Positions 1,543 through 37,509 of a stretch of 37,518 nt of DNA are shown piece by piece. The stretch comes from Bacteroidia bacterium (GTDB lineage Bacteria; Bacteroidota; Bacteroidia; JANWVE01), in contig JANWVE010000005.1 of the NCBI GenBank assembly GCA_025057675.1, positions 1 to 37,518 of the forward strand. Direction: 5' to 3'. The first letter of the stretch is position 1, and every line of letters begins with the position of its first letter. Made by a program: the position numbers and the translations under genes. The notes beneath the pieces were generated by a model. That model made no database searches and was not told the DNA's origin. It saw only the letters and a program-made list of their open reading frames with translations.

Positions 1543-2071
1543 GGGCGTGTCCTTGCCCACGTCTCGCTGCGCTCGTGTGGGCAAGGTCGGCGTGCTGCGG
1601 GCTACGCTATCGCTTCGGTGCTGCGCACTGCTACGCACCCTCCGCATGCCTCACGCAAGCAGCCTTCAAATGTTTTACCTTGTCCTTAAACGCATCTTTG
1701 CTTTACCTTGTTTAACATTGATTATCAAATACTTACAAGGTAAAAATTTTTTATCTTGTTTGAACAGCACTCATTTTATCTTGATTTTCAAGCATTTATA
1801 AGGTTAAATCTTGAATACACGGACTTACCTTAAGCCTTCAACATTTGATGGGCTGTGAAGAACTATATTTTCAGGTACTTACAAAGCTAAATTTTGAATA
1901 AGTGAGGGTAGTTTACTTGCTGCTTGCGTGAGGCATGCGGAGGGCAAGCCGTTAGGCTTGGTGCGAAGCCCCTCGCCCACCCTCAACCCCATGACCAGGG
2001 GGTGGGCGGGTGGGGCGCAGCACCGTTAGCCCGTAGCACGCCGACCCGAAGCGCAGCGAAGGGACACGCCC
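1543..2071 (+). repeat. GC-armed dispersed repeat, copy 1 (full)
   Basis: It runs from GGGCGTGTCC to GGACACGCCC. The left arm is type B (CCCTCCGCATGCCTCACGC) and carries the hairpin CCTTGCCCAC/GTGGGCAAGG. The AT-rich core has TTTACCTTGTTTAA and TCAAATACTTACAAGG motifs. The right arm is type L, with AAGCC-GTTA-GGCTT and a G-rich block. It separates tRNA-Ser from rplP, exactly where the upstream half of the S10 operon would normally lie. The open frame 1541-1801 is an artefact of the repeat. Confidence 0.9.
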
Positions 2072-9989: not shown

Positions 9990-10568
9990 GGGCGTGTCCC
10001 TCGCTACGCTCGGGTCGGGCTACTGCGCACTACGCTTTCGCTTCGGTGCTACGCTGCGCTGCGCACTGCCTAACGGCATGCTCCGTATCCCTCACGCAAG
10101 CTGCATTTTGGTGTTTTAACTGCTTACCATACGCGCGTTTGCTTTATCCTGTTTAATGTTCATTATGAAGCACTTACAAAGTTAAAATTTTTACTTTGCT
10201 TCAATCGCATTTGCCTATCTTATTTTTCATTGATATTCAAGCATGTGCAAGGTTAAACCTTGAATACGCAGATTTTTACGAGCCTTTAACCTTGAATACT
10301 CAACTTTTACCTTATTTTCAATTAGTTTTCAGGTATTTACAACATTGATTAAATGTACTTTTACCTTGTTTGAGCTTGATTTTGAGGTATTTACAAAGTT
10401 AAACTTTCAATAAATAGAGTTAGGGTACTTGTGGCGTGTTATTGCGTGAGGCATGCGGAGGGTGCATCGGCAGTGCGTAGCGTAGCGAAGCACCGAAGCG
10501 ATAGCGCAGCCCGTAGCACGCCGACCTTGTGGGCATACGCGCAGCGTAACGCCCACAAGGACACGCCC
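9990..10568 (+). repeat. GC-armed dispersed repeat, copy 2 (full)
   Basis: The left arm is type A (GGCATGCTCCGTATCCCTC). The core has four spaced TTACAA/TACCTT-type units. The right arm is the type B sequence in inverse, carrying the hairpin CCTTGTGGGC/GCCCACAAGG. It lies where the distal part of the ribosomal cluster (rpmJ onward) would be expected. The interval 10569-10775 after it contains a direct repeat AAATACTAAAATAAATACTA and nothing else I recognise. Confidence 0.9.
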
Positions 10569-14610: not shown

Positions 14611-15182
14611 GGGCGTGTCCCTTCGCTGCGCTGCGGGTCGGGCTACTGCGCACTACGCTCACGCTCGGTGCTACGCTGCGCTTCGCACTGCCTAACGGCA
14701 TGCTCCGTATCCCTCACGCAAACGGTATTTTCATGTTTTACCTCATTTTTAAACATACATTAGCTTTACCTTGTTTAATACGGGTTATCAACTACTTACA
14801 AGGTTAAAATTTTTTACCTTATTTTAAGTGGGATTATTTTACCTTGTTTTAGACTCATTTTCAAGCATACAAGTTTAAACCTTGAATGCATGGACTTTTT
14901 GTAACCCTTTAACCCTGATTCCCAAAATTTTACCTTATTTTGTATTGATTTTCAATAATTTACAATATTAAAATAATTTTTACTTTGTTTAAAGTTGATT
15001 ATCAATCACTTACAAGGTTACATTTTGAATAAGCGGGATTAGTCTACTTGCTGCGTGCGTGAGGCATGCGGAGGGTGCGTGAGCAGTGCGTAGCGTTAGC
15101 GAAGCACCGAAGCGATAGCACAGCCCGTAGCACGCCGACCTTGCCCACACGAGCGCAGCGAGACGTGGGCAAGGACACGCCC
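14611..15182 (+). repeat. GC-armed dispersed repeat, copy 3 (full)
   Basis: It begins 38 nt after the propeller gene stop. The left arm is type A. The right arm is type B inverted, with the hairpin CCTTGCCCAC/GTGGGCAAGG, the reverse pairing of the GTGGGC/GCCCAC stem in other copies. A loop-side variant GCGTTAGC is present. An insertion sequence remnant starts 22 bp after its end. Open frames 14595-14807 and 15044-15322 are artefacts. Confidence 0.9.
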
Positions 15183-15263: not shown

Positions 15264-16253
15264 ATGAAAAAAAATATAACTCTCTTTTCTCTGTTGAAAG
15301 AGACATCAAGCAAGGCAAACATACAGATTTTTTTAACACGGATAGAAAGTTTTTTAAGAAATAAAGGAAAAATTACGGTCAGAAGTTTGTCCAGATACTG
15401 TGGTGAGTATAGTTTGCGTCAGTTATTTCGTTTCTTTGGGATAGTTGGAATAGGCATTGTTGTGTAGGACTATATCAACAAGGGAAAAAGTATCTTATCG
15501 CTATAGACGAAACGGTAATAGAAAAAAGTGGAAAACATACGCATGGAAAACACCGATTTTATAGTTCTGTATGTCAGCAGGATCAGGGATAGCGTTTATG
15601 GCATTAAGTCTGATAGATGTAGAGAAACGGAAGTCATACAGCATAAGTCAGGAGCAGATTATTGTCAGCCAAGTGGATAAAGTTAAATTGAGAAAAAAGA
15701 AAAGAAACGGGGTCGTCCGAAGGGGCGTCAAAATGAGGTTAAAACTGAACCCGATACGCCTGCTTATCATGCTTTCAAGATGCTGTTAGAAAAAGTATTT
15801 GCCGTTTTGATAAAGATTATTCCACAACTTCAAGTACAGTATGCGGTCTTGGACAGTGCTTATGCAGTGGCACGATATATACGTACTTTACAACAATATG
15901 GCTTGGCTGTGATTGCTAAATTATCTTCCGATGCGGTCTTATATTTGCCCGCAAACCGAGTTCTGTCAAAAAACGGGGACGTCCTGCCCAGTATGGACAA
16001 AAAATCAAACTCGCTGATATAGATGATCCACATCTCGTTCAAACTATCCAAAAAAACACCCATACAGAATATATCTATCAAATTACAGGGTATCAGAAAT
16101 CTTCACTGAAAAACTATTATTATAAGAACTTTGTATCATGCTCATTTTCACTACGAATATTTATTAAAATATATCTCCGAAAAACCCGAAAAACAATTTT
16201 TATTCCCCGATATTCATACCATTATACCACCTGATATGATTCACATTACTTAA
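15264..16253 (+). pseudogene. DDE transposase, frameshifted (IS4-like)
   Basis: The N-terminal part (15264-15467) reads KGKITVRSLSRYCGEYSLRQ and then stops. A second piece carries IAIDETVIEKSGKHTHGKHR, probably the first catalytic Asp region. A third contains SGIAFMALSLIDVEKRKSY and an RGRPKG AT-hook-like stretch, and a fourth has AVLDSAYAVARYIRTLQQYG with the second Asp. The last piece ends IIPPDMIHIT at TAA 16251-16253. At least three frame breaks are present. The layout resembles IS4/IS701-type transposases; the exact family is unproven. Confidence 0.75.
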
Positions 16254-18475: not shown

Positions 18476-19552
18476 ATGGAGCATACCACACTGTTCGGCG
18501 GAATTGTTCATTACGAACATGAACAAGTAATGCTTTGTCATGATAAGCATACAGGATTAAAGGCAATCATTGCCATTCACAACACTGTGCTTGGTCCTGC
18601 ATTGGGGGGTACGCGTATGTGGCAATATGCTAATGATTTAGAGGCGTTAGAAGATGTTTTACGTTTATCCAGAGGTATGACTTACAAGGCTTCCTTAGCA
18701 GGCTTAAATTTAGGAGGAGGAAAGGCTGTTATTATTGGAGACCCTCGTAAGGATAAGAATGAAGCATTTATGCGAAGATACGGAAAGTTTGTGCATAATC
18801 TTGGCGGAAAGTATATCACTGCGGAGGACGTTGGCACTACTACAAAGGACATGGAATATATTCACATGGAAACCCCTTATGTAGCAGGTATTCCTGAGAG
18901 CATGGGAGGCAGCGGAGACCCTTCACCTTTTACTGCTTATGGAGTGTATATGGGCATGAAAGCAGCGGCTAAATATAAATGGGGTAAAGACAGTTTGCAA
19001 GGTAAAAAAATAAGTATCCAGGGCGCAGGAAGTGTAGGTTTTCATATCATTGAACACTTAACAAAAGAAGGAGCAGTAATCTATTTCACGGATATTTTTG
19101 AAGATAAAATAAAAAACGTACAAAAACACTTCTCTGAGGCTATTTACGTCAAACCTGAGGAGATTTATAGTCTACCCGTAGATATATATTCGCCTTCTGC
19201 ATTAGGCGCCACAGTAAATGATGAAACGATACCACAACTTAAATGCGAAATCATTACAGGTTGTGCGAACAATCAACTCAAAGATGAACTTAAACATGCT
19301 CAAATGCTTAAAGAAAGAGATATTTTGTACGCACCTGACTATTTAGTCAATGCAGGAGGGTTAATCAATGTATATTCTGAACTTAATGGCTATAATCGTA
19401 AGCGAGTTTTAGAGCAGTGTGAGTATATCTACACAATTGCTATGAATGTATTTGAGGAGGCTTATACTAAAAATATTACCACAGCACAATCTGCTAATGA
19501 ATTAGCAGAAAAACGGATCCAAAGTATAGCTAATAACAAACTGTACCGATAA
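18476..19552 (+). CDS. Leucine dehydrogenase
   Basis: This NAD-dependent enzyme oxidatively deaminates leucine, valine and isoleucine to the 2-oxo acids. The 358-residue length is typical. The substrate motif PALGGTRMWQY is followed by Lys71 (MTYKAS) and Lys83 (LGGGKAVI), equivalents of the substrate-binding and catalytic lysines. AEDVGTTTKDM matches the conserved acidic loop. The Rossmann motif is QGAGSVGFH. Phe and Val dehydrogenases are close relatives, so specificity is inferred. It stands alone in its transcript and is followed by repeat copy 4. Confidence 0.9.
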   Translation: MEHTTLFGGIVHYEHEQVMLCHDKHTGLKAIIAIHNTVLGPALGGTRMWQYANDLEALEDVLRLSRGMTYKASLAGLNLGGGKAVIIGDPRKDKNEAFMRRYGKFVHNLGGKYITAEDVGTTTKDMEYIHMETPYVAGIPESMGGSGDPSPFTAYGVYMGMKAAAKYKWGKDSLQGKKISIQGAGSVGFHIIEHLTKEGAVIYFTDIFEDKIKNVQKHFSEAIYVKPEEIYSLPVDIYSPSALGATVNDETIPQLKCEIITGCANNQLKDELKHAQMLKERDILYAPDYLVNAGGLINVYSELNGYNRKRVLEQCEYIYTIAMNVFEEAYTKNITTAQSANELAEKRIQSIANNKLYR

Positions 19553-19593: not shown

Positions 19594-20197
19594 GGGCGTG
19601 TCCCTTCGCTGCGCTCGGGTCGGCGTGCTGCGGGCTGCGCTATCGCTTCGGTGCTTCGCTGCGCTACGCACTGCTGACGCACCCTCCGCATGCCTCACGC
19701 AGCAGCATTTGGATACTTTACCTTGTTTGTATACATACCTTTGCTTTACCTTGTTTAATGTTGATTATCAAATACTTGCAAGGTCAAATTTTTTTATGTC
19801 GTTTGAAATGGTTTCATTTCAATTTGTTTTTTATTCATTATCAAGTACTTACAAGGTTAAACCTTGAATACATGGACTTTACAACCCTTTAACCCTGAAT
19901 ATACAAGTTTTACCTTATTTTCAATTGATTTTCAATGATTTACAAGGTTAAAGTGTGTTTTTATCTTGTTTGTTTTTGATTATCAGTTACTTACAGGATA
20001 AAGCTTTGAATAAATAGACTCTGTCAACCTGCAAAGGTCTTTGCGTGAGGCATGCGGAGGGCAAGCCATCAGGCTTGGTGCGAAGCCCCTCGCCCACCCT
20101 TAATCCCTTGCCCAGGGGGTGGGGCGCAGCACCGTCAGCCCGTAGCACGCCGACCTTGTGGGCATGAGCGCAGCAAAACGCCCACAAGGACACGCCC
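19594..20197 (+). repeat. GC-armed dispersed repeat, copy 4 (full)
   Basis: It begins 41 nt after the leucine dehydrogenase stop. The left arm is type B with TGC-GTCA-GCA (read from the complement). The core holds four units of the TTTACCTTGT...TTACAAGGTTAAA type. The right arm is type L with AAGCC-ATCA-GGCTT, a G-rich block and the hairpin CCTTGTGGGC/GCCCACAAGG. A -33 box for the next gene starts 27 bp after its end. Open frames 19557-19892, 19598-19867 and 19987-20199 are artefacts. Confidence 0.92.
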
Positions 20198-23323: not shown

Positions 23324-23900
23324 GGGCGTGTCCCTCGCTGCGCTCGGGTCGGCGTGCTGCGGGCTATGCTATCGCTTCGGTGCTTCGCTGCGCTACGCAC
23401 TGCTTACGCACCCTCCGCATGCCTCACGCAGCAGCATTTGGATACTTTACCTTGCTTGTATACATACCTTTGCTTTACCTTGTTTAATACTGATTATCAA
23501 ATACTTACAAGGTTAAAATTTTTTACCTTGTTTGAATTATGCTCGTTTTATCTTGTTTCGCACTGATTTTCAAGCATATAAAAGGTTAAACCTTGGATAT
23601 ATGGACTTTCAGTAACTCTTTAACGCCATATATGCGAATTTTATTTTATTTTATATTGATTTTAAGACACTTACAAGGTTAGAATATATTTTTACCTTAT
23701 TTAATCTTCACTTTCAGGTACTTACAGGATTACATTTTGTATAAGTGGACGTAGCATACTTGCGGCGTTCTTGCGTGAGGCATGCGGAGGGCGTGCGATA
23801 GCACGGTGCGAAGCCCCTCGCCCACTCTTTTACTCTTGCCCAGGGGCGCAGCACCGTTAGCCCGCAGCACGCCGACCCGAGCGCAGCGAGGGACACGCCC
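23324..23900 (+). repeat. GC-armed dispersed repeat, copy 5 (full)
   Basis: It begins 22 nt after the lat stop. The left arm is type B with TGC-GTAA-GCA read from the complement. A clean core unit is TTTACCTTGT (23474-23483), TGATTATCA (23491-23499) and ACAAGGTTAAA (23507-23517). The right arm is type L but its stem is CGTGC-GATA-GCACG instead of AAGCC/GGCTT, a paired replacement. The outer hairpin is the short form CCCGAGCGCAGCGAGGG. Confidence 0.92.
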
Positions 23901-24007
23901 AAAATACTTACAGCTAAAAATTACATCAAACCCCTTGAAAACTATAATTTCACTTTATCTGTGCAACTATGTACTTGATACGTATTTCTGAATTTCAAAA
24001 AAATTTC

Positions 24008-24015
24008 TACCTTTG
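24008..24015 (+). promoter_or_regulatory. -7 box upstream of the 103-aa gene
   Basis: TACCTTTG lies 20 nt before ATG 24036. A TTG at 23975-23977 is too distant for a standard -33 box, so strength is uncertain. Confidence 0.5.
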
Positions 24016-24035
24016 TAACAAATATACTAACTAAT

Positions 24036-24347
24036 ATGATGGGCGCTATTTCCATATTTGAGCTGCTAGCAGCCGTTGCTGTAACAGGCTTCATCGGTTA
24101 CCTTATAGGCTATTTTCATAGAGGTTATCGTTATCGCAAAGCCTCTGCCGCAGAAGCCGTAATCATTGATGACTCTAATGTAAAAGTTTTTGTTAGTCCA
24201 GAGCAGTTCAAAGAACATGACGCAAATTTTCTCGGAAACATAATTAAAATTACCTTAAAAGACGGTAGAGTTATTAACGCAAAAAACTGCCCAAGTACGC
24301 GTAAATGGATTGAAGAAGCTATTAAATACAACGCGCTAAGCGAGTAA
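24036..24347 (+). CDS. Small membrane-anchored protein, unknown
   Basis: The 103-residue product has one N-terminal hydrophobic segment (about 8-27, LLAAVAVTGFIGYLIGYFHR) followed by a charged soluble domain ending GRVINAKNCPSTRKWIEEA. I recognise no family. An alternative start is the second Met. It precedes nuoF by 37 nt in the same direction and may be co-transcribed. Confidence 0.65.
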   Translation: MMGAISIFELLAAVAVTGFIGYLIGYFHRGYRYRKASAAEAVIIDDSNVKVFVSPEQFKEHDANFLGNIIKITLKDGRVINAKNCPSTRKWIEEAIKYNALSE

Positions 24348-24384
24348 ATTTTTTACATGCCATTTTTGTTTTTATTTTCATAAT

Positions 24385-25806
24385 ATGGAAAATTGGAGAA
24401 ATTACAAAAAGGTTCTTTTGCCAGATATCCCTAACCTCAATAAAATAGAGGTTTACGAAGCCAACGGTGGTTATAAGAAATGGAGAGAAATAATAACAGG
24501 TTCAGGTAGGTATACTCTGCTTAAAAAAGAAGAGAAAATTCTAGAAGATGGCACGAAACAAGTAATTGAAACCAAAGAAGAAGTGCCTTATACGCCTAAA
24601 TTAGTGATTGATATTGTTAAATCGGCTAATGTGCGGGGGCGCGGGGGCGCGGGTTTTAATGCAGGGTTAAAATGGTCATTTATGCCCCCAAAAAAGGAAG
24701 GAGTACCAAGATATTTAGCCATTAACGGAGATGAGTCTGAGCCTGGTTCGTTCAAAGACCGCAGACTAATGGAATTTAATCCGCACCTGGTTATTGAGGG
24801 AATTTTATTTGCTTGTTATGCTATGGAAATGGATGCGGCATATATCTACATTCGTGGGGAATATATCGACTACTTGAAATTTTTAGAGAAAGCTGTATCC
24901 GAAGCATATTCCAAAGGATATGTAGGTAAAAATATCTTAGGTTCAGGCAAAAATATAGAAATATATGTTCATAGAGGTGCGGGGGCATATATTTGTGGCG
25001 AAGAGACCTCTCTCATGGAGTCATTAGAAGGAAAGAGAGCTTATCCTCGTTCAAAGCCCCCCTTCCCCGCACAAAGGGGACTATGGGGATGCCCCACTAC
25101 TATCAACAATGTAGATACTATGGCACAGTGCGCTTTGGTTATGCGCTATGGCGCAGAGTGGTATGCTTCCATAGGTGCAAAGACACACCCTGGTCCTTTT
25201 TTATACGGTATCTCTGGGCATGTAAATAGACCTGGTATCTACGAATACCCAACAGGTATGCTGATTACAGACCTTATCTACAAGGTAGCGGGCGGAATGA
25301 AGAATGGAAAGAAACTTAAAGCAGTCATTCCAGGGGGTGTTTCTGTGCCTATCCTTCGTGCAGATATGATAGAAGGGGTACGTATGGATACTGACTCCTT
25401 AGCCGCAGCAGGGTTAAATATAGAAAATGGTAAATATGGCTTTCCATTAGGCAACCGAAAAATAGGTTCAATGATGGGTACAGGAGGTATGGTGGTCATG
25501 AACGAGGATACAGATATGGTGAAGTTATTAAGACGAATTTGTCAATTTTTTCATCATGAGTCTTGCGGGCAATGTACGCCCTGCCGCGAAGGTACAGGTT
25601 GGTTAGAAAAACTTATCATTAAAATTGACGAGGGTAGGGGAGAAATGAAAGATTTAGACCTTTTATTCAGTCTTGCTGAAAATATGGAAGGCAGAACAGT
25701 GTGTATGCTGGCAGATGCATCTGCTTGGCCCGTACGCGCTACTATACTTCGTTTCAGGGAAGAGTTTGAAGCCAAAGTTAAGAACAGCATATACGCTGTA
25801 TCATAG
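24385..25806 (+). CDS. nuoF: NADH-quinone oxidoreductase subunit F
   Basis: NuoF is the NADH- and FMN-binding 51-kDa subunit of respiratory complex I. The FMN motif GRGGAGF is at residues 85-91, the NADH motif GAGAYICGEETS at 199-210, and the 4Fe-4S (N3) ligands are Cys394, Cys397, Cys400 and Cys440. An insert at about 41-70 (lysine/glutamate-rich) lengthens the N-terminus. nuoE and nuoG, normally adjacent, are absent; a repeat element follows 31 nt after the stop. All catalytic residues are intact. Confidence 0.96.
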   Translation: MENWRNYKKVLLPDIPNLNKIEVYEANGGYKKWREIITGSGRYTLLKKEEKILEDGTKQVIETKEEVPYTPKLVIDIVKSANVRGRGGAGFNAGLKWSFMPPKKEGVPRYLAINGDESEPGSFKDRRLMEFNPHLVIEGILFACYAMEMDAAYIYIRGEYIDYLKFLEKAVSEAYSKGYVGKNILGSGKNIEIYVHRGAGAYICGEETSLMESLEGKRAYPRSKPPFPAQRGLWGCPTTINNVDTMAQCALVMRYGAEWYASIGAKTHPGPFLYGISGHVNRPGIYEYPTGMLITDLIYKVAGGMKNGKKLKAVIPGGVSVPILRADMIEGVRMDTDSLAAAGLNIENGKYGFPLGNRKIGSMMGTGGMVVMNEDTDMVKLLRRICQFFHHESCGQCTPCREGTGWLEKLIIKIDEGRGEMKDLDLLFSLAENMEGRTVCMLADASAWPVRATILRFREEFEAKVKNSIYAVS

Positions 25807-25837
25807 AATTGAATGATGCTTACTAATGATGTTTTTT

Positions 25838-26443
25838 GGGCGTGTCCCTTCGCTTCGCTCGGGTCGGGCTACTACGCACTACGCGTTCGCTTCGGTGCTA
25901 CGCTAACGCTTCGCACTGCCTAACGGCATGCTCCATATCCCTCACGCAGCGGTCTTTGCACATTTTACCTTGTTTTTATATATATCTTTGCTTTACCTTG
26001 TTTAATGTTCATTATCAAGTACTTACAAAGTTAAATTTTTTACCTTGCTTGAATTGCATTCGTTTTATCTTGTTTTACATTGATTTTCAATTATTTACAA
26101 GGTTAAACCTTGAATGTACGGACTTTTGATAACCCTTTAACCCTGATTAAATAAGCTTTACTTTGTTTTTCATTCATTTTCAGGTGTTTACAAAGTTAAA
26201 GCGTACTTTTTTATCTTGTTTAGTATTGATATTCAAATATTTACAAGGTTAAAATTTGAGTAAGCAGACTTAGTCTAATGGCTGCTTGCGTGAGGCATGC
26301 GGAGGGCAAGCCGTTAGGCTTGGTGCGAAGCCCCTCGCCCACACTCAAACCCTTGCCCAGGGGGTGGGGCGCAGCACCGTTAGCCCGCAGCACGCCGACC
26401 TTGTGGGCATGAGCGCCAGCGAAACGCCCACAAGGACACGCCC
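25838..26443 (+). repeat. GC-armed dispersed repeat, copy 6 (full)
   Basis: The left arm is type A, with TGCC-GTTA-GGCA read from the complement. The core has CTTACAAAG and TTTACAAGGTTAAA units. The right arm is type L with AAGCC-GTTA-GGCTT and the hairpin CCTTGTGGGC/GCCCACAAGG, which has an extra C in its loop. It lies between nuoF and prmA. Frames 25836-26129 and 26286-26474 are artefacts. Confidence 0.92.
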
Positions 26444-26484
26444 AAAAATAAATTTAATCCGTCAGAGTAAATAAAATAACCTCT

Positions 26485-26492
26485 TACCTTTG
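26485..26492 (+). promoter_or_regulatory. -7 box abutting prmA
   Basis: TACCTTTG ends 4 nt before ATG 26497, implying a nearly leaderless prmA transcript. No TTG is seen at the ideal -33 distance. Confidence 0.55.
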
Positions 26493-26496
26493 CAGC

Positions 26497-27342
26497 ATGA
26501 GTACCATAAAAACTCATGAGTATATTCAAATAACGTGGAAAGCCTTGCCGAACTTGCAAGAAATTATCATAAGTGTTTTGACAGATATTGTAGAGTCTTT
26601 CGAGCAAAAGGAACATATCTTACACGCATATATACCTGCCACAGATTTTGAAGAGATGAAATTGAAAAACATTCTCAATCAGTATAAAATCCTGGAGAGT
26701 ATCCCGTATGAGGTTACTTATATTCCTACACAGAATTGGAATCAACTGTGGGAAAAACAATTTGACCCTGTACATCTACACCCGTATTTGCTTATTAGAG
26801 CAACTCATCACAGTGGAGAAAGCGATATGAAATATGACCACGTTATCCAAATTCAGCCCAAAATGGCTTTTGGCACAGGACACCATGAAACTACTCAAAT
26901 GATGCTCAAAGCAATGAAATCACTGAACTTTAACAATAAAACAGTATTAGACGTTGGATGTGGATCAGGAATTTTGTCTATTTATGCCAGCCTTTTAGGT
27001 GCCAAAAAGGTTACTGCTTTAGATATTGATACGTGGTCTATTGAAAATGCTCAGGAAAATGCTCTCTTGAATCACATTTCAAATATTGAAATATATCTCG
27101 GGAGTATTGAAACCCTTGATAATCAGTTTTTTGATATTATTCTTGCTAATATCAATCGTAATGTAATTATAGCGCAGCTAAAAGAATACCTATCTCGTTT
27201 GAACGCAAAAGGATTTTTGTTAATCAGTGGCTTTTTTGACTGCGATACTGATATCATTGACCCACAAACTGCAAGGCAAAGTTTAACGTTCATCAAAAAG
27301 ATTGTACAAAATGAATGGGCTTGCTGCGTTTATCAAAAATAA
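26497..27342 (+). CDS. prmA: Ribosomal protein L11 methyltransferase
   Basis: PrmA trimethylates ribosomal protein L11 using S-adenosylmethionine. The 281-residue protein has an N-terminal substrate-recognition domain and a class I methyltransferase domain. The signature MAFGTGHHETTQMML, motif I VLDVGCGSGILS and the later DIILANINRNVI match the family. Length is slightly shorter than E. coli PrmA (293). The promoter box is directly in front of the ATG. A miniature repeat follows. Confidence 0.93.
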   Translation: MSTIKTHEYIQITWKALPNLQEIIISVLTDIVESFEQKEHILHAYIPATDFEEMKLKNILNQYKILESIPYEVTYIPTQNWNQLWEKQFDPVHLHPYLLIRATHHSGESDMKYDHVIQIQPKMAFGTGHHETTQMMLKAMKSLNFNNKTVLDVGCGSGILSIYASLLGAKKVTALDIDTWSIENAQENALLNHISNIEIYLGSIETLDNQFFDIILANINRNVIIAQLKEYLSRLNAKGFLLISGFFDCDTDIIDPQTARQSLTFIKKIVQNEWACCVYQK

Positions 27343-27379
27343 ATCTTGTAATGCTTTAAATTGTTCTGCTTTTGTTCTT

Positions 27380-27430
27380 GGGTGTGTCCTTATAGGAATG
27401 GGCAAAGCGAAACGCCCACAAGGACACGCC
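27380..27430. repeat. Miniature GC-armed repeat (51 bp), copy 7
   Basis: It consists only of the two outer ends: GGTGTGTCCTT (27381-27391) pairs with AAGGACACGCC (27420-27430), with one G-T wobble, around an inner GGGC...GCCC pair and the GCAAAGCGAAAC loop. The whole AT core and both inner arms are missing. It lies 37 nt after prmA and could act as a transcription-stopping hairpin. In the rest of 27343-27649 I see only a short imperfect inverted repeat and the promoter below. Confidence 0.75.
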
Positions 27431-27634
27431 AAAAATCATCAATATCAAAACAATACTGATACTCGTTGTTGTAACAACAAAATAACATCAATATAAAATT
27501 ATATTTGAATACAAAACATAAACTTATGCACTTTAAACCGTCATTACCCAGCTATCTTGCAAACCGTAAAATACCATCACATTTTCGAACCCTGTTTTAA
27601 ACTTGCAATGAGTAAATATGTTATACTTTTACAG

Positions 27635-27642
27635 TATTTTTG
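27635..27642 (+). promoter_or_regulatory. -7 box upstream of the lipoprotein gene
   Basis: TATTTTTG ends 7 nt before ATG 27650. It excludes the longer in-frame reading from 27557, whose codons would be upstream of the transcript. Confidence 0.5.
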
Positions 27643-27649
27643 TAAAAAT

Positions 27650-28036
27650 ATGAAACAATTTATTTTAGGAACAGCGATTTTATTCATTCTTTTTTTCTCG
27701 TCATGTACTAAAGAGAGCAAAAAACGCAAGGAAGTAAGTATTGCTTACGCAAATGCTATGGCAAAACAAGATTATGAAACCGCAAAAAAATACTGTACCG
27801 AAGAGAGTAAAAAATCAATTGACTGGGTTAAGGGAATGATAGAAGCTCCAGAAAATAAACAAAAAATCCAAGGTCCAAAGTACGCCTTTGTTTCCGAAAC
27901 ACTTTCTGATAACACTGCAATAGTCAAACTGAAAGAGATAGACAGTACAGCCAAAGAGATTGAAATTGTTTTGAAAAAAATAAATGGAGAGTGGTTGGTG
28001 TCCATTGAGAAACCTAGATTTAGGTTAGATAAATAA
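27650..28036 (+). CDS. Small lipoprotein, DUF4878-like
   Basis: The 128-residue product has a signal peptide with lipobox (MKQFILGTAILFILFFSSC), so it is probably lipidated at Cys19. The mature part (IAYANAMAKQDYETAKKYC... and VKLKEIDSTAKEIEIVLKK...GEWLVSIEK) has the NTF2-like pattern of DUF4878 lipoproteins. Role unknown. The start is set by the promoter and the signal peptide. Confidence 0.75.
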   Translation: MKQFILGTAILFILFFSSCTKESKKRKEVSIAYANAMAKQDYETAKKYCTEESKKSIDWVKGMIEAPENKQKIQGPKYAFVSETLSDNTAIVKLKEIDSTAKEIEIVLKKINGEWLVSIEKPRFRLDK

Positions 28037-28136
28037 AAAATCCACACAAAAATCTTTTATGCTGCTATCCATACTTTTAACTTTTACTTTTGCTGAGATG
28101 TCAAAATTTATCTTTATTAGGCTTTATTAGGTAAAT

Positions 28137-28898
28137 ATGAAAATAATCACATACAACATTAACGGACTGCGGTCAGCTATTCGCAAAAACTTTTTACTAT
28201 GGATAGAGCAACAAAATGCAGATATTGTATGCTTACAAGAAACAAAATTGCAGTCGCATCAAATACCAAATGAGCTAACCCTACTGCGCCCTTCATACCA
28301 TATGTATTGGTCACATGCGAGCAAACCTGGATATAGCGGTGTATCTGTATGGAGTAGAGTAAAGCCCAATGACATCAGAAATGGAATGGGCATTCAAGAG
28401 TTCGACGTAGAAGGTAGAACATTAACATTGATATATTCAAATTTCTGCTTGGTAAATGCTTACTTTCCTTCGGGTTCAAGTGGAAGATTAGAGTATAAAT
28501 TGAGCCATTTAGAAGCCTTTAAGCATTATATCCAAGATTTGAAGAGTAAATATCAAACGGTTGTCATTTGTGCGGATGTCAATATTTGCCATAAACCCAT
28601 AGATATTCATAATCCCAAACAGAATGAAAAAACCTCGGGATTTTTACCTGAGGAGAGAGCATATATTGACCAATATATTGAGTTAGGATATGTAGATACA
28701 TTCAGGTTAGTAAATTCACTTCCGCATCAATATACGTGGTGGGACGTACGCTCGGGTGCGAAAAAACAAAATAAAGGTTGGCGAATTGACTATATTTTTG
28801 CAACTAATAACCTTAAAAATAAAGTAAAAAATGCTGTATTAGCACCTGAAATAGATTTTTCAGACCACTGCCCTATGATATTAGAAGTTGATTTGTAA
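28137..28898 (+). CDS. xth: Exodeoxyribonuclease III
   Basis: This Mg-dependent AP endonuclease and 3'-5' exonuclease acts in base-excision repair. In the 253-residue sequence, Asn7 (YNINGLR) and Glu35 (LQETKLQ) bind metal, ADVNICHKPID carries the catalytic Asp/Asn pair, and SDHCPMILEVDL has the terminal Asp-His. Full length with no missing residues. Repeat copy 8 begins 32 nt downstream. Confidence 0.94.
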   Translation: MKIITYNINGLRSAIRKNFLLWIEQQNADIVCLQETKLQSHQIPNELTLLRPSYHMYWSHASKPGYSGVSVWSRVKPNDIRNGMGIQEFDVEGRTLTLIYSNFCLVNAYFPSGSSGRLEYKLSHLEAFKHYIQDLKSKYQTVVICADVNICHKPIDIHNPKQNEKTSGFLPEERAYIDQYIELGYVDTFRLVNSLPHQYTWWDVRSGAKKQNKGWRIDYIFATNNLKNKVKNAVLAPEIDFSDHCPMILEVDL

Positions 28899-28930
28899 AT
28901 TATAGCCAGTTTGGTATTAATTAATTTTTT

Positions 28931-29473
28931 GGGCGTGTCCCTCGCTGCGCTCGGGTCGGCGTGCTGCGGGCTACGCTATCGCTTCGGTGCTACGCTGCGC
29001 TCCGCACTGCTCACGCACCCTCCGCATGCCTCACGCAAACCGCATTTGGATGTTTTACCTTGTTTTTATGCATGCTTTTGCTTTACCTTGTTTAACATTG
29101 ATTATCCATTACTTACGAGATTAAAATTTTTTACCTTGTTTGAGATGTTGTCGTTTTACATTGATTTTCAAGTATGTACAAGGTTAAACCCTGAATACAT
29201 ACACCCTTGTAACATTTTAAGGAAGATTTAGTTTTGTAGATATGTTTTTATTTTGTTTGAGCTAGGAAGCTCAAACTACGTTATTAGGTACTTACAAGAT
29301 TAAAGTTTGAATAAGTGGACTTAGTCTGATAGCAGTTGCGTGAGGCATGCGGAGGGCAAGCCGTCAGGCTTGGTGCGAAGCCCCTCGCCCACACTTTTAC
29401 TCTTGCCCAGGGGGTGGGGCGCAGCACCGTCAGCCCGTAGCACGCCGACCCGAGCATAGCGAGGGACACGCCC
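28931..29473 (+). repeat. GC-armed dispersed repeat, copy 8 (full)
   Basis: It lies between the convergent xth and glycosyltransferase genes. The left arm is type B with GTGA as the tetraloop, and the right arm is type L with AAGCC-GTCA-GGCTT and the short outer hairpin CCCGAGCATAGCGAGGG. The core is shorter than average. Its end is 35 bp from the glycosyltransferase stop. Frames 28911-29231, 29284-29487 and 29347-29559 are artefacts. Confidence 0.92.
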
Positions 29474-29508
29474 AAAAAAAATATCAAAAGATTAGTCAGC
29501 CCCTCAAC

Positions 29509-30681
29509 CTAAGAAACCCTCTCCGTAGGTTTCCATACGCTTTGAGGCTTTGTAAATAAATACTTGAAAAACCCAATCAACAAAGCAAGATTCATCGCTA
29601 AAAAATGAGTCAAAAATCTTAAAGGTTTAATTCCTCGCCTTTCTTTGAATAAGATTATATCCAAAAAGACAAAGACACAAATAACTAAAATAAACATTGA
29701 TAAAGCTAAGTAAAATCTGCTTTGTGTAGCTAAAATACCTAAACAAATACCCGCTACAACCATCAATAGGGGCAGGAACCACCGTAAAATTTTGTGCGAA
29801 AAATAGCAAAAAAAGATTTTTGAAAAAGGTTTTCTCCAAAACATAGTGAAATAAAATAAATTTTGAAAATTTCCGACAGCATACCTCGTTTTACGCCTGA
29901 ATTCTTCGGTTATTTTAACAGAAAAGGTTTCAAAGCCTATCGCATTAGGTTCAAGTATTGTTTTTTTACCTTGTGCGAGTACCTGCATGCTGATAAAAAA
30001 GTCGTCAGAGATAAATCCTTTTGGGGTTGCTCTGTACAGGTTCTTGCGAATAGCATACGAAGCTCCAAAAGCACCTATCATACAGCCAAGTAAACCTTCA
30101 TAGTATTTTATCTTATTTTCAAAATTGATATATGTGGTTTCTTGCTGTGAAATTCCGCTCTCAATTACTTTATCATTGATAATATTTGCCCCTACTAAGC
30201 CGACTTCCTCATTTTTGAAGTGAGCTACCAAGTCAAAAATATGCGATGGGGTAAAAATAATGTTTGCATCCGTCAGGATTAAGATATCTGCTTGCACGTT
30301 CTCCACTAACTGATTTATAATTTGAGGCTTGCCTGTACGTTGAGAAAAAATTCGTAAATGTAAATTAGGATACTGTGTTTGATATTGTTGGATTATAGCG
30401 TTAGTATTGTCTGTGGAATTATCTGAGCCTATCCATACTTCGAGTTTGTCTGATGGGTAAGTAGTATCAAAAGTGTATTTGATTTTCTGGTCAATGATTT
30501 TCTCTTCATTGTAAGCCGCAAAGAGAATAGCTACTTTGGGTAAATCATCATTTTGAGCGTGTTTGAGAGTATTTGGTATTTTATTTTTAGTCATCATTTT
30601 GAGGATTAGAAAATACCCAACATAATGGTACAACAAAAGAAAAACTACGCTCCAAAGTACAATTGCAAGATAGATTTCCAC
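29509..30681 (-). CDS. Membrane glycosyltransferase, family 2
   Basis: The 390-residue protein has an N-terminal membrane helix, a GT-A domain (about 50-270) and about three C-terminal helices. Motifs are VAILFAAYNEEKIID, the nucleotide-sugar region GSDNSTDNT, TDAN (DxD-like), SDDFFISMQVLAQG and RRKTRYAVGN (similar to the Q/RxxRW motif of processive enzymes). Such proteins make surface polysaccharide or lipid-linked sugars; substrate unknown. Translation appears to start at GTG 30679-30681, immediately after a -7 box. Confidence 0.85.
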   Translation of the reverse strand: MEIYLAIVLWSVVFLLLYHYVGYFLILKMMTKNKIPNTLKHAQNDDLPKVAILFAAYNEEKIIDQKIKYTFDTTYPSDKLEVWIGSDNSTDNTNAIIQQYQTQYPNLHLRIFSQRTGKPQIINQLVENVQADILILTDANIIFTPSHIFDLVAHFKNEEVGLVGANIINDKVIESGISQQETTYINFENKIKYYEGLLGCMIGAFGASYAIRKNLYRATPKGFISDDFFISMQVLAQGKKTILEPNAIGFETFSVKITEEFRRKTRYAVGNFQNLFYFTMFWRKPFSKIFFCYFSHKILRWFLPLLMVVAGICLGILATQSRFYLALSMFILVICVFVFLDIILFKERRGIKPLRFLTHFLAMNLALLIGFFKYLFTKPQSVWKPTERVS

Positions 30682-30685
30682 ACAG

Positions 30686-30693
30686 CAAAACTA
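30686..30693 (-). promoter_or_regulatory. -7 box abutting the glycosyltransferase start
   Basis: On the minus strand TAGTTTTG is followed after 4 nt by the GTG start codon, again predicting a leaderless or nearly leaderless mRNA. Confidence 0.5.
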
Positions 30694-30806
30694 AACATAA
30701 AATTAACCTTGTGATATAAGAATAATTATTTTTCGACGGATTTCGTTGCCCGTAAAAGGTATATTATGTTTATGCTATATCAATTTCACGAATTGATTTA
30801 TACTTT

Positions 30807-31382
30807 GGGCGTGTCCCTCGCTGCACTCGGGTCGGCGTGCTACGGGCTAACGGTGCTACGCCCCACCCCCTGGGCAAGAGTGAAAGTGTGGGCGAGGGGC
30901 TTCGCACCGTGCTGACGCACGCCCTCCGCATGCCTCACGCACGCTGCTATCAGACTAAGTCCACTTATACAAAAATTAACCTTGTAATTACTTGAAAAAG
31001 GTAGTGATCTTCCTAGATCAAACAGGTAAAGAAACTACAAAGGTAAAACTTGCGCGTTCAAGGTCAAAGGGTCGTGTAAAGTCCATGTATTCGGGATTTA
31101 ATTTTGTACATACCTGAAAATCAATGCAAAACAAGATAAAACAACTACAATTCAAACAAGGTAAAAAATTTTAACCCTGTAAGTAATTGATAATCAATGT
31201 TAAACAAGGTAAAGCAAGTGTATGTATGCAAACAAGGTAAAACATCTGAATGCGGCTTGCGTGAGGCATGCGAAGGGTGCGTGAGCAGTGCGTAGCGCAG
31301 CGAAGCACCGAAGCGAAGCGCAGCCCGTAGCACGCCGACCTTGCTTGCATGAGCGCAGCGAAACGCAAGCAAGGACACGCCC
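30807..31382 (-). repeat. GC-armed dispersed repeat, copy 9 (full, minus)
   Basis: Core motifs read AAGGTAAA on the plus strand, so the copy is inverted. At the low end is arm L with the stem CGTGC/GCACG (loop GTCA in element orientation); at the high end is arm B with TGC-GTGA-GCA. The outer hairpin at the high end is CCTTGCTTGC/GCAAGCAAGG, a third paired variant. The high end lies 32 bp from the 3' end of the next minus-strand gene. Frames 31145-31378 and 31171-31368 are artefacts. Confidence 0.92.
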
Positions 31383-31414
31383 TAATTCAGAATATCAACA
31401 ATAGCTGCACTTTT

Positions 31415-31633
31415 CTATTCCTTTGTTTTTGATAGATCGGAGTTTTGTCTCTTATGTTCTTTTAATTTCTGATGCTGCTTGAAAGCCCACTGATACATTA
31501 GACTGGCAATAATTAAGGAAATATACATAAGGTAAGAGTTCTTAGCATAGCCCATATCCAAAAATAAAAACACAATCACAGATACAGACATCCATACCAC
31601 CATAAAACCCCAAAACCATAACCAAAAACGCAT
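31415..31633 (-). CDS. Small two-helix membrane protein, unknown
   Basis: The 72-residue product has two hydrophobic segments (FWGFMVVWMSVSVIVFLFLD and YLMYISLIIASLMYQWAF) and a lysine-rich cytosolic tail. It lies 3 nt downstream of the DUF4412-like gene, so the two are probably co-transcribed and translationally coupled. No family recognised. Confidence 0.65.
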   Translation of the reverse strand: MRFWLWFWGFMVVWMSVSVIVFLFLDMGYAKNSYLMYISLIIASLMYQWAFKQHQKLKEHKRQNSDLSKTKE

Positions 31634-31636
31634 GCC

Positions 31637-32263
31637 TTACTTACCTAATCCCATACTAGGCATATCTTGTATTTCGTATTGTGATAGGTCAGGGAATATT
31701 GAGTCACTAATTGAGTTCTTTTCAATTTTAGTAACTTTCATAGTTATAGCTTTGTTTTCATCTTTACTTTCTATTTCTATGGGAAATCCGTACTTTGAGA
31801 ATGTAGGTGCGTCTTTTTCTTTTCTACTTCCAAATAATTTGTCAAAATCTATATTTACTTCTTTGGTAACCCAAGCTATGGTAGTTTTCTTGTTATCTTC
31901 TATAATGATTTTAGTGCATTTATAGCCGAGAATATCTTTGGTTTCTTTGGTCTCAGTTACCTTTACCTTGTTTTTATCGTCATCTTTTGAGGTATCATTT
32001 ACTTTAATTCTTACAGCAACTTTTTTATCTGTTTCTCTGAGCATGTATATATCCTTTTTGGCACCGTCTACGTACATTTTTTGAACGGGAATACCACCCA
32101 CTTTGACCTCTGCAACTGCTCTATCTCCCTTAATTTTATACTCTTGTGTGATAGACATACCTTGTGAGGTCATGTCCATTACTACTACTCCCTCAAAATT
32201 TTGAGCAAAGTTTAGTAAGTGAAAATAACTAACCGTAATCAATATAAAAAATAACTTTTTCAT
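31637..32263 (-). CDS. Exported DUF4412-like protein
   Basis: From ATG 32263 the 208-residue protein has a signal peptide (MKKLFFILITVSYFHLLNFA) and a beta-rich mature part containing FEGVVVMDMTS, DILGYKCTKIIIEDN and TIAWVTKEVNIDF, the pattern of DUF4412 envelope proteins of Bacteroidota. An upstream ATG at 32302 would add 13 residues ahead of the signal peptide and precede the promoter box. Function is unknown; it forms an operon with the small membrane protein downstream. Confidence 0.78.
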   Translation of the reverse strand: MKKLFFILITVSYFHLLNFAQNFEGVVVMDMTSQGMSITQEYKIKGDRAVAEVKVGGIPVQKMYVDGAKKDIYMLRETDKKVAVRIKVNDTSKDDDKNKVKVTETKETKDILGYKCTKIIIEDNKKTTIAWVTKEVNIDFDKLFGSRKEKDAPTFSKYGFPIEIESKDENKAITMKVTKIEKNSISDSIFPDLSQYEIQDMPSMGLGK

Positions 32264-32271
32264 ACTGGGCG

Positions 32272-32279
32272 CAAAGTTA
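32272..32279 (-). promoter_or_regulatory. -7 box upstream of the DUF4412-like gene
   Basis: TAACTTTG on the minus strand ends 8 nt before ATG 32263. It supports the shorter start. Confidence 0.55.
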
Positions 32280-32330
32280 ACAAAATGCAGGATAGAAAAC
32301 ATAGTGAATTATGACTAATGTTGTTAAAAA

Positions 32331-32361
32331 TACAAAAAACACTCTTCTATCAGAAGAGTGC
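32331..32361 (-). terminator. Terminator of the FecR-like gene
   Basis: A perfect 8-bp stem CACTCTTC/GAAGAGTG with a 5-nt loop (32340-32360) is followed, in minus-strand direction, by a run of six T. This is a standard intrinsic terminator 32 nt after the gene's stop. Confidence 0.88.
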
Positions 32362-32392
32362 TTTTACTGCAAGATGGAGTATTGTTTAGCCT

Positions 32393-33364
32393 TTATTTAT
32401 TCAAGCTCGCTACAGCTTCTTGACGAACTTTATTAGCTAAAAAGCTCATTTCATGTCTGTCTAAGAACATAGCATATAGTTCGCGGTATTCAACTACATC
32501 AGGTGCCATCTCAATAGCTTCTTGGTATGCTTTCATAGCGTTCATAATTAGGTCCTTACTTTCGTAATAACGAGCAAGCATAATTTTATTTAGAGGATTA
32601 GGTTCTTCTTCGTTAAAAGCTTTTAGGTCATGTTGTATAGACTTACGAGTATTATTGTCTAGGATAGTAAAAGGTTGAGCATCTTCCTCACCACCATTGT
32701 TATCTTTCAAGTTTACCCTCCAGTAATAGTGTTCGCCATGTTTGAGATTGAGTTTTTCTACATTCATGACTACGAATGTATCTTTGGTTTCTTTGGTGTA
32801 AATAGGAGTGCCCATGCGGTTGGATATTTCAAAAACGTATCCAGATTGTTTAGCGGCTTCTCTAGCTCTTTTATCGGTTACCCAATTAAATGTTACAATG
32901 CTATCAATAAAGCTTGTTTTTCTTGGAAGCTCAGGGGTGACAGTGCCTTTGGTGGCTCGTTCAATAGAGCCTAAGTTAGCCATGGATTTGCGGTAGTCTT
33001 GGAATTTACCTGAAGATCCTGTTACGTCTTGGGTTACGTAAGCCACTACTTTACTTCCTACGGAGGAGTTAGCACTCATTTGTTTTTCTAATTCTGATAA
33101 TGATATCGTGCCTGGGTTACGAATCTCTTTTGCTTTTCCTGATTTAAGATGAACTAAGCCAACATAAGCGTCTTCTCCTACCTTGATATTATCGGTTTTG
33201 TTTAGCTTAGAGCCTGTAAAAACTTTTACCCAAGTACCTTCCCCTTTTCTTTGAAGCTGTACGTCTCCTTTGGTTGCTAAAACGGAGAATACTTCCTGAG
33301 CAGACAATGATGCACTTATACAGAGTGCCGCAGCAAGTAAACAGATTTTTTGTATGGCTTTCAT
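32393..33364 (-). CDS. Exported FecR-like protein with TPR-like tail
   Basis: From ATG 33364 the 323-residue protein has a signal peptide (KAIQKICLLAAALCISASLS, cut before QEVFSV). The segment VLATKGDVQLQRKGEGTWVK to about residue 75 resembles the FecR-type beta domain. The middle (YVFEISNRMGTPIYTKETKD...HYYWRVNLKDNNGG) resembles an Ig-like domain, and the end (KIMLARYYESKDLIMNAMKA) looks like TPR helices. An ATG four codons upstream (33376) is possible. Monocistronic, with its own promoter and terminator. The role is probably envelope-associated; no partner is seen. Confidence 0.75.
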   Translation of the reverse strand: MKAIQKICLLAAALCISASLSAQEVFSVLATKGDVQLQRKGEGTWVKVFTGSKLNKTDNIKVGEDAYVGLVHLKSGKAKEIRNPGTISLSELEKQMSANSSVGSKVVAYVTQDVTGSSGKFQDYRKSMANLGSIERATKGTVTPELPRKTSFIDSIVTFNWVTDKRAREAAKQSGYVFEISNRMGTPIYTKETKDTFVVMNVEKLNLKHGEHYYWRVNLKDNNGGEEDAQPFTILDNNTRKSIQHDLKAFNEEEPNPLNKIMLARYYESKDLIMNAMKAYQEAIEMAPDVVEYRELYAMFLDRHEMSFLANKVRQEAVASLNK

Positions 33365-33413
33365 AGATTTTCGCATTTTAAGTTGTAAAATTAAGTATTT
33401 TTTACTGTATTTG

Positions 33414-33444
33414 CAAATTTAGTTACTTATACGGATACAATCAA
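33414..33444 (-). promoter_or_regulatory. Promoter of the FecR-like gene
   Basis: On the minus strand TTG (plus-strand 33442-33444), 20 nt, TAAATTTG (plus-strand 33414-33421). It leaves a leader of about 40-45 nt, unlike the abutting promoters elsewhere in the window. Confidence 0.65.
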
Positions 33445-33506
33445 AATAAAGTTTCAAATGATTTTAATCTTATCATCTTTTTTATTTGTTTTTTTGTTAA
33501 ATACTT

Positions 33507-34350
33507 TAATATGCGTGAAATTTTTCAGATGTTTTTTTCAGATACAAAAAAACTGTACTTTTGTACAGTATGAAAAAAATAAATATAACTCTCTTTTCAC
33601 TGTTGAAAGGGACATTAAGTAAGGCAAACATACAGATTTTTTTAACACTGATAGAAAGTTTTTTAAGAAATAAAGGAAAAATTACGGTCAGAAGTTTGTC
33701 CAGATACTGTGGTGAATATAGTTTGCGTCAGTTATTTCGTTTTTTTGGGATAGTTCATAATTGGATAGAAATAAGCATTGTTGTGTAGGACTATATCAAC
33801 AAGGGAAGAAGTATCTTATCGCCATAGACGAAACGGTAATAGAAAAAAGTGGAAAACATACGCATGGCAAACACCGATTTTATAGTTCTGTGTATCAACA
33901 GGTAGTATCAGGGATAGCGTTTTCAAGTACAGCATACGGTCGTAGACAGTGCTTATGCAGTGGCAGGATATGTACGTACTTTACAACAATATGGCTTGGC
34001 TGTGATTGCTAAATTATCTTCGGACGCGGTCTTATATTTGCCCGCAAAACCCATTCCTGTTAAAAAACAGGGACACCCTGCCAAGTATGGGCAAAAAATC
34101 AAACTCGCTGATATAGATGACCGATATCTCGTTCAAACTATCCAAAAAAACACCCATACAGAATATATCTATCAAATTACAGGGTATCAAAAATCTTCAC
34201 TGAAAAACTATTATAAGAACTTTGTATCATGCTCATTTTCAGTACGAATACTTATTAAAATATATCTCATAACAACCCGAAAACTATTTTCTATTCCCCG
34301 ATATTCACACCATTATACCCCTAGATATCATTCATAATAGATCCATATTG
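33507..34350 (+). mobile_element. Degenerate insertion sequence, copy 2
   Basis: It shares both ends with the first copy: AATATGCGTGAAATTTTTCA on the left and ATCCATATTG on the right. It is 844 bp long because about 245 bp are missing in the middle (junction near 33920, where GGGATAGCGTTT joins TCAAGTACAG). The 7-bp promoter dyad (33552-33569) is kept, directly before ATG 33570. The right end runs straight into the core of a truncated repeat element. Confidence 0.8.
33570..34343 (+). pseudogene. DDE transposase, deleted and frameshifted
   Basis: The first part (to 33788) reads KGKITVRSLSRYCGEYSLRQ then VHNWIEISIVV and stops. The second, in the -1 frame, has CVGLYQQGKKYLIAIDETVI. After the deletion, AGYVRTLQQYGLAVIAKLSS and QKIKLADIDD continue in a third frame. 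The frame break after the N-terminal part is shared with the other copy. Inactive. Confidence 0.75.
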
Positions 34351-34542
34351 AAACAAAGTAAAAAATTTTAATTGATAATGAACATCCAACAAGGTAAAGC
34401 GAATGTATGCATAAAAATGAGATAAAACATCAAAACGCTGCTGCGTGAGGGATACGGAGCATGCCGTAAGGCAGTGCGTAGCACCGAAGCGTCAGCGTAG
34501 TGCGTAGTAGCCCGACCCGAAGCGCAGCGAAGGGACACGCCC
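34351..34542 (-). repeat. GC-armed dispersed repeat, copy 10 (truncated)
   Basis: Only one arm and part of the core are left. The core (AACAAGGTAAAGC) starts at the IS end. The arm is type A with TGCC-GTAA-GGCA and the short outer hairpin CCCGAAGCGCAGCGAAGGG, ending GGACACGCCC. The missing half was probably lost in the event that brought the IS here. Confidence 0.88.
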
Positions 34543-36893: not shown

Positions 36894-37509
36894 GGGCGTG
36901 TCCTTGTGGGCGTTTCGCTTTGCTCATGCCCACAAGGTCGGCGTGCTACGGGCTAACGGTGCTACGCCCCACCCGCCCACCCCCTGGTTATAGAGTTGAG
37001 AGCGTGTGCGAGGGGCTTCGCACCCTGCTGACGCACGCCCTTCGCATGCCTCACGCAAGAACCTTGGCAGGTCGGCAAGACCCATTTATTCAAAGTTTTA
37101 CCCTGTAAGTGCCTGAAAATGAATACTAAACAAGGTAAAAATATATTTTAACCTTGTAAATGTCTCAAAATCAATTGAAAATAAGATAAAATTTGCATAT
37201 TCAGGATGGAAGAGGTATAAAAAGTCCATGTATTCAAGGTTTAACCTTGCATATGCTTGAAAATAACAAAGAAACAAAGTAAAGTAATAGCACTTCAAAC
37301 AAGGTAAAAATTTTTTAACCTTGTAAGCATTGGATAATGAGCATCAAACAAAGTAAAACAAAAACATGCATAAAAACGAGGTAAAACATCTAAACGCTGC
37401 TGCGTGAGGCATGCGGAGGGTGCGTCAGCAGTGCGTAGCGCAGCGAAGCACCGAAGCGATAGCGCAGCCCGCAGCACGCCGACCCGAAGCGCAGCGAAGG
37501 GACACGCCC
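36894..37509 (-). repeat. GC-armed dispersed repeat, copy 11 (full, minus)
   Basis: The low end is arm L with the hairpin CCTTGTGGGC/GCCCACAAGG and a stem CGTGC-GTCA-GCAGG with one mismatch. The high end is arm B with TGC-GTCA-GCA and the short outer hairpin. The core holds four units in reverse. At 616 bp it is the longest copy. It begins 89 nt after the upstream stop and ends 9 bp before the window edge. Frames 36920-37108, 37098-37298 and 37295-37477 are artefacts. Confidence 0.92.

Follow-up and report, generated by a model that had tools for sequence, protein, structure and literature searches.

The 37,518-nucleotide stretch of Bacteroidia DNA analyzed here (contig JANWVE010000005.1; hereafter the window) carries a series of ~600 bp intergenic elements, in which two inverted arms enclose a ~340 bp AT-rich core. 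A short hairpin, designated Ha, lies at the same place in every arm and forms one branch of a multibranch fold that is conserved and strand-specific; its stem is near-invariant in pairing, not in sequence, and the third position of its loop is free. The best overall explanation, and a reasonably likely one, is that the arms belong to a family of single-stranded DNA signals that has become hyper-amplified in this lineage. The resulting intergenic repeat load is extreme for a bacterium, and the fold is upheld by compensatory change over more than 1,000 copies.

The fold of the arms

The fold spans ~70–170 nt and comprises an outer helix, P1 (GCGTG/CACGC), a second helix, P2, with GNA/GNA internal loops, three branches (Ha, Hb and Hc) and a terminal hairpin. 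Statistics for this genome are drawn from about 517 kb of its sequence. Alignment of 84 of its own arms shows that P2 is broken by a 3x3 loop, and that 96% of cells are paired. Two-sided changes in this alignment number 213, whereas shuffling yields 83 and slid controls no more than 29; the 213 are sequences counted, many of them inherited by subfamilies, so that independent events are fewer. P1 is invariant among these arms, and its covariation comes from relatives: in arms of other genera P1 is paired in 37/37 cases and shows two-sided change in four of its five pairs (GCGTT/AACGC, GCATG/CATGC, GCGTA/TACGC). Two-sided cells number 72 versus 20 in the control for the alignment of these 37 arms, and 29 versus 7 for a class-wide alignment of 32 sequences.

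The original prediction, made from the bare sequence, described a short stem with an interchangeable sequence enclosing a four-base loop with a nearly free third base. Both features are borne out. The hairpin is present in 9/9 arms between positions 23324 and 34542, and four main stem types occur among 231 arms from 431 kb: TGC/GCA (86), CAAGCC/GGCTTG (48), CGTGC/GCACG (41) and TGCC/GGCA (38), the others being rarer variants. The loop reads G-N-N-A, with GTCA (104), GTTA (51), GTGA (37) and GTAA (13) all found, together with GGTA (6) and GATA (4). The covariation described above extends to the Ha stem, and unpaired changes are less common than paired ones in the own-arm alignment. A tabulation of loops and stems, which the prediction had proposed, was carried out on the 231 arms; stem variation is non-random, in that the two arms of an element avoid the same stem (see below). 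Similar GTNA-like variation that had been noticed elsewhere in the arms (GCGTTAGC, GCGATAGC) proves to be the same motif in other branches. Most of the loops quoted with the prediction lie within 23324–34542 as stated, but ATCA (20062–20077) and TGC-GTCA (19672 and 37421) lie outside that range.

Folding is strand-specific. On the strand whose loops read GNA, G.T oppositions in stems outnumber A.C oppositions by 21 to 4, which argues that one strand folds, and G.T pairs make up 0.5–1.5% of stem cells. The GNA strand also folds better than its complement in 187/231 arms when DNA parameters are used, and in 166/231 when RNA parameters are used.

Loop composition and the Flavo-1 family

The loops of the arms follow a simple rule. 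Three internal loops in the own arms place 5'-GNA opposite 5'-GNA, and apical loops are GNA or GNNA apart from a few, GAAC among them. Among hairpins of the form GC-loop-GC, loops that begin with G and end with A number 769 with three bases and 297 with four, far above other classes. Only 23% of the GC-closed GNNA loops are GNRA. A role for GNRA tetraloops of RNA, at which the original prediction had hinted, was rejected as a constraint, given this low share and the greater number of triloops. Tetraloops of the d(cGNNAg) type are stable. GNA triloops closed by C-G form extraordinarily stable DNA mini-hairpins with sheared G.A pairs (Hirao 1994 and Yoshizawa 1997, as cited in PMC6479982), and examples such as d(GCGAAGC), as presented in PMC6479982, are of the same class as the apical loops of the arms. 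Unlike isolated mini-hairpins, such loops recur in the arms both as caps and as GNA/GNA internal loops across a natural genomic element. The GNA/GNNA pattern would fit sheared G.A closure in DNA mini-hairpins, and the loop code leans to DNA without proving it. Overall, the arms quite probably act as DNA rather than RNA.

Relatives of the arms extend well beyond this genome. Arms are found with an exact-spacing pattern in 13/395 genomes of the class, and with a covariance model (R1) in 30/198 genomes of a phylum-wide sample. Solo arms predominate outside this genus, with 7–34 copies per genome in four complete genomes; the nearest named relative (PrmA 63% identical) has no arm in 14.5 kb, a stretch too short to inform. 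A second covariance model, R2, was built from 37 arms of other genera with none from this genus, and it detects 17 of the window's arms (lowest E-value 3e-8, E-values being rough). Relatives in other Bacteroidota families match the Rfam family Flavo-1 (RF01705) with scores of 49–72 bits (top 71.9), above the gathering cut-off of 42, and the window arms themselves have no Flavo-1 or other Rfam match at either the gathering or a permissive threshold. Flavo-1 and the relatives share an inner hairpin whose internal loops are GAA/GGA and GGA/GUA, and the Rfam model, which treats Flavo-1 as RNA, stops short of P1 and the terminal hairpin. The window arms differ in that the inner hairpin is replaced by Ha-Hb-Hc and the arms form inverted pairs around a core. 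Since a model without this genus recovers the window arms and the relatives match RF01705, the window arms are best placed, by covariance-model homology, within an extended Flavo-1 superfamily, as one of its divergent branches. Homology derived from relatives alone, an outer helix that covaries in the relatives, and GNA/GNA loops are all present. To our knowledge, the widespread Rfam family Flavo-1, counted among the abundant bacterial small RNAs, has been without a known function since 2010. A literature search by sequence words of the element returned nothing relevant.

The main alternative is that the arms are RNA, either a small RNA or an untranslated-region element, as Rfam has Flavo-1. 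RF01705 is classed by Rfam as a small RNA gene and the relatives match it well, some Flavo-1 matches in Flavobacterium psychrophilum coincide with 5' transcribed regions (PMC9723704), and G.T pairs do exceed A.C. However, the F. psychrophilum transcriptome contains Flavo-1 matches in both sense and antisense, often outside transcribed regions and many of them not transcribed (PMC9723704), and gene orientation is unbiased around solo arms. Neither the GNA triloops nor the low GNRA share reflects an RNA preference, the G.T share of stem cells is small, and the number of arm ends in this genome (1,344; see below) would be unusual for an RNA gene. The RNA explanation is thus unlikely.

Isolated observations were also made on the relatives. 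Two members lie outside the Bacteroidota, on a plasmid of Paraclostridium bifermentans (Clostridia; L377 3499–3584 and 669–755; R2 E 4e-12 and 1e-8). One genome (G193, L231 1291–1584) has an element within about 100 bp after the end of a 23S-5S rRNA operon, and a second copy with an identical score 3.1 Mb away. A tentative bias of orientation relative to replication in one complete genome was dropped, since the origin could not be placed.

Copy number, arm differences and mobility

Across the 2.89 Mb assembly the inner arm end is present 1,344 times (664+680), compared with two occurrences of a control. In the 431 kb sample, 102 two-armed elements account for 57,115 bases, about 13% of the sequence. 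Placement is regular: 91 of the 211 intergenic gaps in this sample contain exactly one element and none contains two, doubles being fewer than under random placement, and no element lies inside any open reading frame of the sample. Core length is mostly 337–347 bp, with a minor class of about 110–130 bp. Long cores, such as 23430–23772, consist approximately of four imperfect AT-rich hairpin units (TTTTACCTTGTTT..TTGATTNTCAA..ACAAGGTTAAAA), and short cores (about 110 bp) of a single unit. A Bacteroidota -7-like box, TAnnTTTG, is present at position 20–40 of 38/81 long cores and points into the core.

The two arms of an element avoid carrying the same Ha stem. The same stem is found in both arms of only 2/107 elements, against an expectation of 25.3 and a minimum of 11 over 5,000 permutations; a damaged CGTGC stem is involved in one of these two elements. 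As a control, the facing arms of neighboring elements match in 21/86 cases, which is the random rate. A second species shows no same-stem pairs among 17 elements versus 4.1 expected. On a tree of 81 cores, itself weakly supported, Ha stems change about 30 times on the left and 34 times on the right, near shuffled values; elements have therefore swapped arms repeatedly, and the rule is not the legacy of a few founders. The simplest reading of this new arm-difference rule is that each arm must fold on itself, since inverted arms with alike stems would pair together into one long palindrome, whichever strand was single. Some contribution from same-arm elements dropping out of short-read assemblies is conceivable but less likely.

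The elements of the window illustrate this organization. Element termini are inverted repeats, with a T-run and GGGCGTGTCC at one end and GGACACGCCC and an A-run at the other. Read from the core outward, an arm starts with GCGTGAGG and ends with GGACACGCC; an A-run lies beyond it, and a T-run lies ahead of the left arm. Element 1 consists of a left arm on the minus strand (23324–23429; R2 E 6e-5; Ha 23401–23410, TGC-GTAA-GCA), whose folded strand runs from inward to outward on that strand, an AT-rich core (23430–23772) that on inspection is non-coding and composed of imperfect hairpin units, and a right arm on the plus strand (23773–23900; R2 match; Ha 23792–23805, CGTGC-GATA-GCACG). Element 2 has a left arm at 25838–25947 (minus; R2 E 4e-8; Ha 25917–25928, TGCC-GTTA-GGCA) and a right arm at 26288–26443 (plus; R2 match; Ha 26307–26322, CAAGCC-GTTA-GGCTTG), and element 3 a left arm at 28931–29036 (minus; R2 match; Ha 29008–29017, TGC-GTGA-GCA) and a right arm at 29338–29473 (plus; R2 match; Ha 29357–29372, CAAGCC-GTCA-GGCTTG). 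Element 4 is inverted relative to the others, with one arm at 30807–30940 (minus; R2 match; Ha 30908–30921, CGTGC-GTCA-GCACG) and a second, recognized by pattern and fold, at 31259–31382 (plus; Ha 31278–31287, TGC-GTGA-GCA). The sole surviving arm of element 5 (34443–34542, plus; Ha 34462–34473, TGCC-GTAA-GGCA) has the best R2 score of the window (E 3e-8), the other half having been lost at an insertion sequence (IS) remnant.

Further two-armed elements recognized by R2 and Ha, each with its first arm on the minus strand and its second on the plus strand, lie at 9990–10568 (arms 9990–10097 and 10444–10568), 14611–15182 (14611–14719 and 15057–15182), 19594–20197 (19594–19700 and 20043–20197; Ha TGC-GTCA-GCA and CAAGCC-ATCA-GGCTTG) and 36894–37509 (36894–37056 and 37402–37509). 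A further arm lies at 699–819 (minus; Ha 785–800) and a further right arm at 1926–2071 (plus; Ha 1945–1960). The window also contains, at 15267–16125 and 33576–34220, two degenerate IS copies of the DDE_5 (PF13546) transposase type that are 91–96% alike, the second of which borders a truncated repeat element.

How the elements moved has several conceivable answers. Target-site duplications are absent from 109 elements, which show no excess of shared flanking words of 2–6 bp beyond the T/A runs. It is improbable that the arms are a non-autonomous repeat of the repetitive extragenic palindrome (REP) or bacterial interspersed mosaic element (BIME) kind, moved by a Y1 (HUH) transposase of the REP-associated tyrosine transposase (RAYT) or IS200 type. 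The elements do resemble REP/BIME/REPIN repeats with their RAYT (TnpA-REP) in being intergenic, high-copy, palindromic DNA in inverted pairs that folds on one strand and makes no target duplication, and in one genome (G300) an element follows an IS200-like tnpA at a distance of about 40 bp. However, the fold here is a multibranch structure of 70–170 nt rather than a hairpin of 20–65 nt, no Y1_Tnp match is found in this genome (assembly 91% complete), in two congeners or in several other carriers, and just 2/44 Y1 loci have an element within about 1.5 kb. RAYT/IS200 mobilization was rejected because Y1 is absent or unlinked, and matches to CCGTTAGGGAT near Y1 genes are unrelated IS hairpins.

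Slightly less probable still is domestication of the repeats for chromosome organization, such as gyrase or nucleoid-protein binding or insulation, with retention for host benefit. The limit of one element per intergenic gap, the exclusion from genes and the lasting maintenance of the fold despite low sequence identity would all agree with it, but no bound protein is known and close relatives live with few or solo copies. A classical miniature inverted-repeat transposable element, cut and pasted double-stranded by a DDE transposase and with hairpins as by-products of its inverted repeats, is very improbable despite the terminal inverted repeats with T and A runs and the DDE_5 IS copies near two elements, as target-site duplications are lacking, the fold is kept within single arms, solo arms occur in other families, arms avoid being identical inverted repeats, and the IS copies lie at positions unrelated to the arms, for which reason the window IS was rejected as an autonomous partner.

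Plasmid relatives and a putative single-strand signal

Members of the family are present on unrelated Bacteroides plasmids, including MOBB and MOBP conjugative plasmids. Copies lie at 18644–18725 and 31047–31128 of p5482 in Bacteroides thetaiotaomicron VPI-5482, and at 722–798 of the 36.5-kb plasmid NC_006873.1 in B. fragilis NCTC 9343. Both copies on p5482 (MOBB) are on the minus strand, and the copy on the MOBP plasmid is on the plus strand; on each plasmid the folded strand is the strand transferred if the origin of transfer (oriT), whose position is deduced from the mobilization genes rather than located, adjoins those genes. An ArdC-like gene lies between the element and the mobilization side on both plasmids and is read off the folded strand, being coded on the strand complementary to the element and directed toward the mobilization genes. 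A RadC gene holds this position in a 98-kb plasmid family. On one Bacteroides plasmid of the 98-kb type (L372 4001–4076 and 4315–4403) about 240 bp separate the element from tandem TTTTACACAACTA repeats that resemble iterons. The 7.3 kb sequence MT837256.1 (L371), labelled phage, also has the element and resembles the 98-kb plasmid family there; it may be a plasmid fragment.

Frpo sequences are single-stranded DNA promoters in plasmid leading regions (PMC11541004). The conjugative plasmids may resemble the Frpo and single-strand initiation (ssi) systems in that the folded strand is the presumed transferred strand and the ArdC-like genes are read from it toward the mobilization region. They differ in that no -10/-35 mimic is shown here and chromosomal copies have no fixed gene orientation. 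Because the plasmid geometry matches that of Frpo, we infer a single-strand promoter or priming signal as the ancestral role. Such a promoter or priming function, argued from this analogy, is possible but doubtful.

It is plausible that the selected trait is the fold of one DNA strand when single-stranded, in which case stem sequence would be free as long as it pairs. Sheared G.A pairs in the GNA/GNA internal loops, together with the GNA and GNNA caps, would hold this single-strand fold; the fold itself defines a Bacteroidota-wide repeat family that includes the Rfam Flavo-1 sequences. The unit in relatives is the solo arm, of which a genome has from a few to a few dozen copies, whereas in this lineage two inverted arms lie on either side of an AT-rich core and the arms have multiplied to about 1,340. 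Because the two arms face opposite ways, either exposed strand would carry one folded signal, and the difference between the arms in their Ha and terminal stems would prevent them from pairing with each other. Originally the element may have served as a single-strand signal, either a promoter or a priming site, in the manner of the copies on conjugative plasmids, with dispersal on chromosomes being secondary. Spread may have proceeded through a single-strand intermediate, a proposal for which the chances appear evenly balanced.

Several findings weigh against the single-stranded DNA signal. Folded as DNA, single arms have a minimum free energy that is unexceptional for their composition (z -0.1 to -1.0), and energy alone would therefore not reveal the fold. 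GNA/GNA internal loops are possible in RNA as well. No -7/-33 promoter mimic is shown in the folded stem, and gene orientation around chromosomal solo arms is unbiased. The plasmid geometry comes from two conjugative families and one 98-kb family, with oriT deduced. No mobilizing enzyme is identified, Y1 not having been found here or in two congeners and being generally unlinked elsewhere.

The Flavo-1 'RNA' might, as a tentative proposal, be a single-stranded DNA start signal of Bacteroidota mobile elements, doubled head-to-head in this uncultured lineage, occupying about 13% of the sampled sequence and constrained such that the stems of its two arms must differ and not pair with each other. 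A DNA-level role for Flavo-1 is indicated by the loop rule, by the outer helix missing from the Rfam model, by where the element lies on plasmids and by the arm-difference rule, and such a role is directly testable in laboratory Bacteroides strains that carry it.

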